Below are positions 48,712-51,700 of a stretch of DNA of 63,118 bases, one piece after another (the first letter of the stretch is position 1; each line of letters begins with the position of its first letter). The notes below the pieces were generated by a model, which was not told where the DNA came from, searched no databases, and saw only the letters and a list, made by a program, of their open reading frames with translations. Made by a program: the position numbers and the translations under genes. The stretch spans positions 1 to 63,118 of the forward strand of contig CAMAQB010000008.1 in NCBI GenBank assembly GCA_945860285.1. The letters run 5' to 3'. This DNA comes from Akkermansia muciniphila (GTDB taxonomy: Bacteria > Verrucomicrobiota > Verrucomicrobiia > Verrucomicrobiales > Akkermansiaceae).

Positions 48712-51700
48712 TCAATAGCCGAGCCAAGGGCCGAGCCATCGTTCGGTGTCCTCGATGCTCATGTTTTTCCGGCGCGCGTAGTCCTCCACCTGGTCGCGCT
48801 GGAGGTCGCTGAGCGCGAAATAATGGCTGTCCGGATGGGAAAAGTAGATGCCGCTCACGGCCGATGCCGGATGCATGGCGTATGATTCCGTCAGTGTCAC
48901 GCCGGTTTTGTTTTGGGCATCGAGCAGTTCGAAGAGAAATTGTTTCTCGGTGTGATCCGGCTGGGCGGGATAGCCGGGAGCCGGGCGGATGCCGCGATAA
49001 AGTTCCTTGATCAATTCGTTGTGGTTGAATTCGTTAGGTCGTTCGTATCCCCAGTCCACCCGGGCGCGATGGTGAAGCAGTTCGGCGAAAGCCTCGGCGA
49101 AGCGGTCGGCGAGTGCCTTGACCATGATGGCGCCGTAGGGGTCGTTTTGTTGTTCCAACTCGGCGGCGAATTCATCTGCGCCATGAATGCCCAGCACGAA
49201 TCCGCCCACGTAGTCCGTAGCGGAGGCGTCCCGCCTCCCGGCTAATTCTGACTTGATTTCCTTTTCACCCGACCATTTCCAATCAATCAGGCCCGCCTTT
49301 ATGGGATTGTTTTTGATGTAATGAAGCTGATTCCAAAAATCATCTTCATCCCGAATCAAATGATCGTAAGAATCTTCTTGCCAGAAAGTTCCTGTTCTTC
49401 CGATCGCTTTGTTCGCTTCTTTGGAAGAAAAACTTTTAATGCTTTGCAGAATTGAATCGAGTTGGTGATCGCCTTTGGGTTGTATCAACAAATGCACGTG
49501 GTTGGGCATCACACACCAAGCTGCGAGATCATAACGATCGCCATCGAAATGAGTGATGCTGCGCGCGACGATGTCAGCGATGATTGGCTGCTTCATCCAT
49601 GCTTCGCCATTTCCCTGATCGAGAATCTCTTCGATATGAGTGCTGTAGAGTTCTTCAATGGAGCGTTTGGTTGACCTGATGACGGTTTGTTGATTGTTGG
49701 CTTCGGCGTTTTCCAGCACTGACTGGAGACGTATTTTTTCCTGAAGATATTGCTTTTGTGCGGTGGGTGGAATGGAGTTGTGCAAACAAAACGTAACGGC
49801 ATACGTTCGTCCTGCTTGGGTCCAATGAGGAAGCGATCGGGTATGGTCTTTTGAAATTTTTTGATGATCTGCCTGGTATGTGGGCTTGAATGATGGAGAG
49901 GCTGGGAGGCGCGACGCCTCCGCTACGGGTTTGACGAAATCCGCCAGCGCGACGTTTGGTTTGCCGCTGGTTTTGTCGATTTGCTGACGCAAGGTATGCA
50001 GTCGGCCACGTTCGTTGCCGCGCGATTCGTCGGACCAGACGATGATGTCGTCGCCCTCGGTATTGGCGGGGAAAAATCCATAGATGCCGCGGGCGTTGAA
50101 ACGTTTCTCCGCAATGATGCGTTCGATCAATTCCAGGGCGTCGGCGTGGATTTTCAGCGCCTCGGCGGCACCGGCGGCGTTTTGGGTCTTGAGTGTCTGC
50201 GTTTCCGCCTGCCAGACGCCGCGGATTTCCCAAGCATGGAAAAAAGGCGTCCAGTCGATGTAGTTGGCGAGTTCGCGCAGCGATTGGTTTTCGATCATCC
50301 GGGTGCCGAGAAATTCCGGCACGGCGGGGCGGTAGTTTTCCCAATCGCAGGTGAATCTGTTAGCCCGGGCCTTGTCGAGAGTGATCGTCGGTTTTTTGTT
50401 CGCGCCCTTCTCGAAATCGATGCGGATTTTTTCCTGCCTCTCGCGGTTGGCCAGAGCGAACGTTTCGCGCTGCTCGGCGGACAACAACGAAGTGGTGACC
50501 GGCACCGAACGGGAGGCATCGAGCACATGCACGACGGGTCCGGAATAATGTTGCGCGATCTTGATGGCCGTGTGCGCGGCGGAGGTCGTGGCACCGCCAA
50601 TCAGCAAGGGCAGCGACATGCCGGCTTTTTCCATTTCCTTGGCGACATGAACCATTTCGTCGAGCGACGGCGTGATCAATCCGGACAGGCCGATGACATC
50701 GGCGCCGATCTCCCGGGCTTTGGCGAGAATCTTGTCGCACGAAACCATCACGCCCATGTCGGTGACTTCGAAGCCGTTGCAGGACAAGACCACACCGACG
50801 ATGTTCTTGCCGATGTCGTGCACGTCGCCCTTGACGGTCGCGATGAGGAATTTCCCCGCCGAGGTGGATTCCTGCACTTCCCCCGGGTTCGCCTTGGCCT
50901 TGGCGATTTTTTCCTCCTCCATGAACGGTTCCAACCAGGCGACCGATTTTTTCATGACCCGCGCGGATTTGACGACCTGCGGGAGGAACATTTTTCCGGC
51001 GCCGAACAGATCACCTACCACGCCCATGCCGTCCATCAGCGGGCCTTCAATCACCTTGAGCGGAACACCGTATTTCAAACGCGCGGCTTCCGTGTCCTCC
51101 TCGATGAAGCGGTCGATGCCTTTCAACAAAGCGTATTCCAGGCGCTTTTCGACGCTTTCTTCGCGCCACGAGAGATCCTCCTCGATTTTGCGACCACTGA
51201 CATTCTTGTAAGACTCCGCCAGTTCCAGCAGACGCTCGGTGGCATCGGCGCGACGGTTGAGGATCACGTCCTCGACTTTTTCCAACAACTCGGGATTGAT
51301 CTGGTCGTACACCTCGAGCATGCCCGCATTGACAATGCCCATGTCCATTCCGGCCTTGCAGGCGTGATAGAGAAAGACCGAATGCATCGCCTCGCGCATG
51401 ACGTTGTTGCCGCGGAAGGAGAAGGAAATGTTGGAAACGCCGCCGCTGACACTCGCGTGGGGGAGGTTCTCCTTGATCCACCGTGTGGCGTTGATGAAAT
51501 CGAGGGCGTAACTGTTATGTTCCTCAATGCCGGTGGCGACCGTGAGGATGTTCGGGTCGAAAATGATGTCCTCAGGCGGGAAACCGACATCGTTGACCAG
51601 GATGTCGTAGGCGCGCTTGCAGATGCGGATTTTTTCCTCATAAGTCGCGGCCTGGCCCTTTTCATCGAAGGCCATCACCACCACGGCGGCACCGAATTTC

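Follow-up and report, generated by a model that had tools for sequence, protein, structure and literature searches.

The window (the whole stretch of 63,118 nucleotides of Akkermansia muciniphila DNA that was analysed) carries a metH gene in which a REP-RAYT element, that is, a RAYT transposase with a REP copy at each end, is embedded in frame within the activation domain of the encoded enzyme. From the comparison of this locus with its relatives, we consider it likely, at a probability of roughly 0.8, that such elements are mobile and persist as translated, nested and tolerated domains of core enzymes, in the present case in a loop of the MetH activation domain.

The draft genome around the window (G000) comprises 3.7 Mb and is 98% complete. 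The features of the metH locus are the following:

52155 to 53249, minus strand: N-part of metH with the homocysteine S-methyltransferase domain, 364 aa, in its own frame upstream of the C-part.
48712 to 52125, minus strand: C-part of metH with the insert, 1137 aa from the ATG at 52125, containing the pterin-binding, cobalamin-binding and activation domains and the embedded RAYT.
49929 to 50310, minus strand: N-terminal half of the MetH activation domain as modelled (Pfam, structure model).
49215 to 49928, minus strand: embedded REP-RAYT element, 714 bp, with zero stops in the host frame.
49901 to 49928, minus strand: REP copy at the 5' end of the element as read with metH, GTAG plus a 7-bp stem, translated as VAEASRLP.
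49273 to 49833, minus strand: RAYT core from LPHW to LIDWKW, 187 aa, with no in-frame ATG, GTG or TTG from the start of the insert to LPHW.
49492 to 49503, minus strand: HUH motif NHVH, from the sequence and aligned to 4er8.
49348 to 49371, minus strand: SYDHLIRD with the candidate catalytic tyrosine, from the sequence; the column is an invariant Y in the RAYT alignment.
49215 to 49242, plus strand: second REP copy, at the opposite end and in inverted orientation to the first (26/28), read in the metH frame as AGRRDASAT.
48715 to 49215, minus strand: C-terminal half of the MetH activation domain (Pfam, structure model).

The frame of the C-part (48712-52482, minus strand) stays open across the insert, which is bordered by ALADFVKP (49927-49950) on one side and DYVGGF (49198-49215) on the other, and the Pfam scan of the window protein split Met_synt_B12 into two stretches with Y1_Tnp in between. 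The earlier note, made from the sequence of the window, had described a 714-bp unit between LADFVKP and DYVGGF without stop or frameshift, 28-nt REP ends (26/28 inverted match, GTAG and a 7-bp hairpin) and intact HUH and Tyr motifs in the RAYT; all of this was found as claimed, with NHVH and SYDHLIRD both present. The metH gene of the window is split into two frames, with the homocysteine domain apart; several relatives have a single frame of ~1500 aa. Elsewhere in the window (42543-46178, minus strand), we noted a 1211-aa frame with apparent membrane stretches.

The Y1_Tnp match in the window protein is above the Pfam cut-off, and the nearest solved relative of the window RAYT is TnpA_REP (4er8; profile E 1.9e-8). 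The candidate tyrosine is not aligned on a 4er8 residue of its kind in the HMMER alignment, where the F of 4er8 sits one column away. An AlphaFold model of the window chimera, computed from 13 sequences (pLDDT 75, pTM 0.50), predicts an activation domain whose fold spans the insertion point (Z 24.1 over 249 residues versus 1msk) and, apart from it, a RAYT fold (Z 14.2 over 137 residues versus 4er8), the REP-coded linkers being modelled below pLDDT 50.

We searched 386 genomes of the same order for Met_synt_B12, which was present in 361, and found an in-frame RAYT at the metH site of the window in at least 37 of these 361 MetH-bearing genomes. The number is a lower bound, candidate genomes having been picked for a pair of PF02965 matches, the better of which had a weakened E-value; candidates G038, G051, G079, G091, G116, G190, G325, G364 and G384 stand outside the count, and candidate G318, when checked, had no such split of the MetH activation domain. 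The inserts span 225-308 residues, and all 37 have a length that is a multiple of 3 and zero stops in the host frame, versus 5-12 stops on average in the other five frames. Two further insertion sites within MetH were found, one in G347 and a third one in G309, the latter invisible to the criterion of two PF02965 matches.

Occupancy is patchy even within the genus of the window, where, among ten members, four carry a RAYT at the site (G000, G002, G005 and G008), one retains a 38-residue remnant (G001) and five have an empty site (G003, G004, G006, G007 and G009). The criterion of the earlier note, by which the insertion would be ancient if all relatives carried it with the same boundaries, gave neither outcome: the relatives have the site in common, but occupancy is patchy and the inserts differ. 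The insertion had also been called rare, which does not hold with at least 37 of 361 genomes filled at the same site and sister RAYTs in many other genes. Separately, MetH of G001 (L064), G005 (L054), G004 (L066), G006 (L067) and G009 (L069) carries another type of in-frame insert, ~230-280 aa long, which lies in the linker joining the cobalamin cap domain to the B12-binding domain; it has a P-loop, GGQGSGKTTA, and is absent from the window, and in L066 it matches Pfam Zeta_toxin barely over the cut-off (22.8 versus 22.3 bits).

Most of the genomes in the comparison are metagenome-derived, many of them fragmented bins, a circumstance that might suggest an assembly artefact or a decaying pseudogene. 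However, the filled loci come from independent records, including one single-contig genome (G232) and one whose match is the record of an isolate, Rubritalea marina DSM 17716, which makes the misassembly envisaged in the earlier note unlikely. Moreover, a pseudogene is at odds with the zero stops in 37/37 inserts and with the purifying selection on both the MetH flanks and the RAYT core. Taken together, the independent records, the stop-free inserts and the purifying selection lead us to reject misassembly and pseudogene alike, and we regard the probability of either as negligible.

The selection on the transposase itself is evident from the RAYT core, for which dN/dS was 0.04-0.20 in the 6 pairs, out of 11, whose dS was not saturated, and NHVH and the Tyr motif (YD[HR]) are kept in 37/37 metH-site inserts. 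An ATG lies ahead of LPHW in 13/37 inserts, and many more have a GTG or TTG, some within the REP; in inserts with such an upstream codon the RAYT may have a separate internal start. In 12/37 inserts, including that of the window, there is no ATG, GTG or TTG ahead of the RAYT domain, so that the RAYT could there hardly be produced except as part of MetH. We infer that the insert is translated together with the enzyme; the open frame and the 37 filled loci support the in-frame enzyme-transposase chimera that the earlier note had envisaged.

The shared site in 37 genomes could be the legacy of one ancient insertion, inherited vertically and domesticated in MetH, with losses, the differences between the inserts being due to sequence drift. 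The MetH-site RAYTs mostly cluster (4 changes for 37 rows in the tree described below), and RAYTs have been described as vertically inherited (PMC8049555). However, congruence was rejected by AU tests in both directions, the host tree being that of MetH alone and quickly built: with the insert alignment, the host tree is rejected (p 5e-6), whereas for the near flanks (110 aa on one side and 160 aa on the other side of the insert) the insert tree is rejected (7e-44) and the host tree accepted (0.17). The host tests covered 36/37 loci, L060 having been left out because its frame is short, and the 'far' segment is unaligned in 2/36 rows (L078 and L091).

Individual pairs of loci are discordant in both senses. 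Among 21 locus pairs with a near-flank protein identity of at least 90%, the inserts are at most 61% identical in 14; in the pair G351/G385, the flanking protein is 97% identical and the insert 54%, with the DNA identity of the right flank nearer 90%. Conversely, G275 and G303 (records L183 and L184), which come from different sequencing projects, share a 681-bp insert without any difference within metH flanks that are ~80-85% identical (0.70-0.98 per 60-nt bin), the identical tract extending 14 nt to the left and 37 nt to the right of the insert. For G351/G327, dS is 0.07 in the RAYT versus 0.56 in the flanks. In these sequences, the inserts and the host metH genes differ in history, the occupant of the site having been replaced and having moved independently of its flanks. 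The AU tests together with the discordant pairs largely refute a single vertical insertion, which we consider highly improbable, and they support the trace of RAYT mobility proposed in the earlier note far more strongly than that note could.

The REP ends are likewise specific to each locus. REP arm match scores at the metH-site loci had a median of 24.5 within a locus and 8.0 between loci, versus a shuffled maximum of 11.5, and the own arms scored above every shuffle in 33/37 loci, the other 4/37 having no clear REP arms; REP pairs that are alike within a locus and unlike between loci also speak against an ancient insertion. In the group of G157 and G351, apparent older REP pieces lie beside the new REP, as seen by eye from the alignment, the remnant being exact over 12 nt on the left in G157 and weaker in G351 and G327, as if the new element had landed in the REP of its predecessor.

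In the window, the two REPs match as inverted copies at 26/28 positions (93%), and each has GTAG and, folded as DNA, a 7-bp stem with a 3-nt loop (z about -2.2), 4/200 shuffles folding equally well. The REP pattern, with at most 2 mismatches, occurs at 12 places in G000 versus 0 for the pattern read backwards and is therefore not due to chance, and REP copies are dispersed in G303 and other genomes too, among the matches listed. Within G000, inverted pairs of the metH REP pattern were also observed at C107:991-1680, surrounding another RAYT (PF01797), and at C54:1128-1638, ~510 bp apart. That the embedded RAYT is the sole transposase of its REP family is untenable for G000, because the same REP at C107:991 and 1659 flanks the PF01797 RAYT (C107:1016-1279), and it would be too strong for the other genomes as well, given that the REP places listed there are a minimum. 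The ends of some other inserts look different: the metH insert of G374 (L095) ends in a long inverted repeat of ~79 nt, not in a short REP; that of G034 (L058) has three translated copies of a REP-coded DHDRDG[HQ]AT repeat at its right end; and that of G353 (L078) has three REP-coded repeats at its left end.

The element need not have moved by its own transposase. Homologous recombination of short metH stretches, an allele replacement with the RAYT as passenger, is a possible but rather unlikely route: RAYT lineages remain with their host site, and the 37-nt right-hand part of the identical tract in G275/G303 fits short-tract recombination as well as transposition. On the other hand, the near flanks (110 + 160 aa) do not follow the insert tree, so that the recombination tracts would need to be very short, and the flanks of the donor-like pair, only ~80-85% identical, are poor for recombination. 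Also against a passenger stand the catalytic residues retained in 37/37 inserts, the core under purifying selection and the REP ends, which are renewed together with the element. Of the two possible drivers of the spread, the RAYT is favoured by its conserved active site and by this renewal of the REPs.

The metH site is one of several that such RAYTs occupy. Related in-frame RAYTs were identified by Pfam in CarB, IspG, LeuS, Eco57I-type methylases, adenosine deaminase, HsdR, a TPR protein, a RhuM protein and glycosyltransferases; AlaS and RecG were recognized as hosts by Pfam, their RAYT part being below the Pfam threshold and found by RAYT searches. In the Planctomycetota, a RAYT lies within ValS in 3/3 scanned. 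The phylum-wide search found a RAYT relative in 115/387 genomes; of the 151 places among the matches listed, 56 are in frames of at least 400 aa, and 95 are in frames shorter than 400 aa, as RAYTs of the same family in ordinary stand-alone frames. The metH RAYT found six members in G000, three of them stand-alone and three in frames longer than 1280 aa (metH, carB and alaS), the additional in-frame copies being those of carB (G000:C60, L072) and alaS (G000:C19, L133).

Within these genes, too, the sites recur. All 4 CarB loci have the RAYT in one loop, all 7 LeuS loci ahead of G[FIT]A[IV][NH]S[GS]FLDG, and all 7 loci listed of the ValS-like group between YPL and VTVATTRPETMLGDT; IspG has one site in 6 of the 8 loci listed, L175 being elsewhere and L208 not placed. 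In L208, the RAYT is flanked inside the ispG frame by long tandem arrays of REP-coded peptide repeats. In a tree of 107 RAYT domains (15 identical domains collapsed, site labels assigned by hand), the host-site label changes 22 times versus 65.0 after shuffling (0/200 as low), and the MetH-site RAYTs fall largely together; the tree is quick, with weak deep forks, and near-copies add to the clustering. By this measure, RAYT lineages belong to host sites, with few switches.

The chimera probably works as an enzyme, since 29/37 filled genomes, that of the window included, have no match to the MetE domain PF01717 (Meth_synt_2); eight filled genomes have a match, strong only in G270. Similarly, in six genomes whose LeuS-RAYT locus is complete, the LeuS editing domain scores best in the RAYT-bearing LeuS itself; its further matches are weak and fall in other frames of synthetase size or in fragments.

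Inteins and mobile introns with homing endonucleases occupy recurrent sites in core genes, have a phylogeny that follows the site, are patchily distributed and move between species. The RAYTs described here are likewise in frame, patchy, at recurrent core-gene sites, faithful to these sites and moving between species, a likeness of lifestyle and not of membership. This resemblance raises the alternative that MetH works only once the insert is gone, whether through splicing of the protein or of the RNA or through ribosomal bypass. However, the Pfam scans of the filled proteins contained no intein family, and the junction residues are variable REP-coded letters; a search for group I or II intron or IStron RNA gave no Rfam match at gathering score in 48700-53300. 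RNA splicing or bypass, moreover, requires no stop-free insert of 3n length, yet 37/37 inserts have both properties, and the termini are REP-coded and vary freely between species. Removal of the insert is accordingly very doubtful. Unlike inteins and mobile introns, the present inserts have no splicing domain or homing endonuclease family but REP ends and an HUH transposase, and they appear to stay in the protein. The element is thus a RAYT in family, and its lifestyle resembles that of an intein without splicing.

With the RAYT/TnpA_REP REPtron, the elements share a domain with HUH and Tyr that is related to 4er8, a pair of inverted terminal REPs that each have GTRG and a hairpin, and further REP copies scattered over the genome. 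They differ in lying in frame inside a core gene, whereas the known ones lie between genes, in sharing one site across species and moving between species, and in having no ATG, GTG or TTG ahead of the domain in 12/37 cases. RAYTs have been described as single-copy and vertically inherited, and models assume that a REPIN landing in a gene destroys it (PMC8049555); being in frame in metH and having trees in conflict with those of the host, the present clade departs from the rule of a vertical, separate gene.

Intragenic GTAG REPs, most of them in Opitutus terrae, were reported in 2013 (PMC3733652), and these, like the present inserts, are REP-like repeats in frame inside verrucomicrobial genes. 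As with the Rickettsia palindromic elements discussed there, REP-coded peptides occur in DNA-repair and other genes; the difference is that those are REPs alone, of 20-82 aa, whereas here the element is complete with its transposase. The part of that paper on intragenic REPs makes no mention of a RAYT inside a gene. A survey of the TnpA_Y1 superfamily, which classifies the HUH/Y family including TnpA_REP, set aside proteins that were longer than expected, taking them for fusions or errors of annotation (PMC6006769). Among open-licence papers, as distinct from preprints, we came across no description of whole RAYTs lying within core genes.

The mechanism that we favour, that of a mobile element persisting as a domain of its host enzyme, would run as follows. 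A REP-RAYT, consisting of two inverted REPs and an HUH/Tyr transposase, would be placed in a loop at the surface of the MetH activation domain, and the ribosome would read straight through, yielding a MetH that bears the RAYT as an additional domain, attached by REP-encoded linkers, and that tolerates it. The whole element, REPs and linker included, would be open in the frame of the gene entered, so that it could do without a promoter, start and stop of its own. Frameshifts and stops arising in the element would be purged by selection acting on the host gene, while the element's own selection would keep the RAYT catalytically intact. From one species to another, the element would move to the corresponding site of the same gene and, less often, to a site in another core gene; the RAYT itself would catalyse this movement, perhaps by inserting into what is left of the REPs of an earlier occupant.

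A wider proposition is that these RAYTs form a new class of mobile element, a non-splicing intraprotein transposon living only as a translated domain of essential enzymes in Verrucomicrobiota and Planctomycetota, kept by the host promoter and by purifying selection and homing between species to a fixed site per gene (MetH, LeuS, CarB, IspG, ValS and AlaS); we judge the chances of this to be evenly balanced. Annotation that labels such proteins as fusions or errors has hidden embedded RAYTs. As a clade that persists in core and partly essential enzymes, with its members exchanged between species at one and the same site and its catalytic residues retained, these RAYTs would offer a natural system in which to study RAYT mobility, with filled, empty and remnant alleles within one genus. 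The clade would also supply a catalogue of natural permissive loops for a domain of ~200 residues, in MetH, CarB, LeuS, ValS and IspG, and would exemplify selfish DNA that is sheltered by purifying selection and does not splice.
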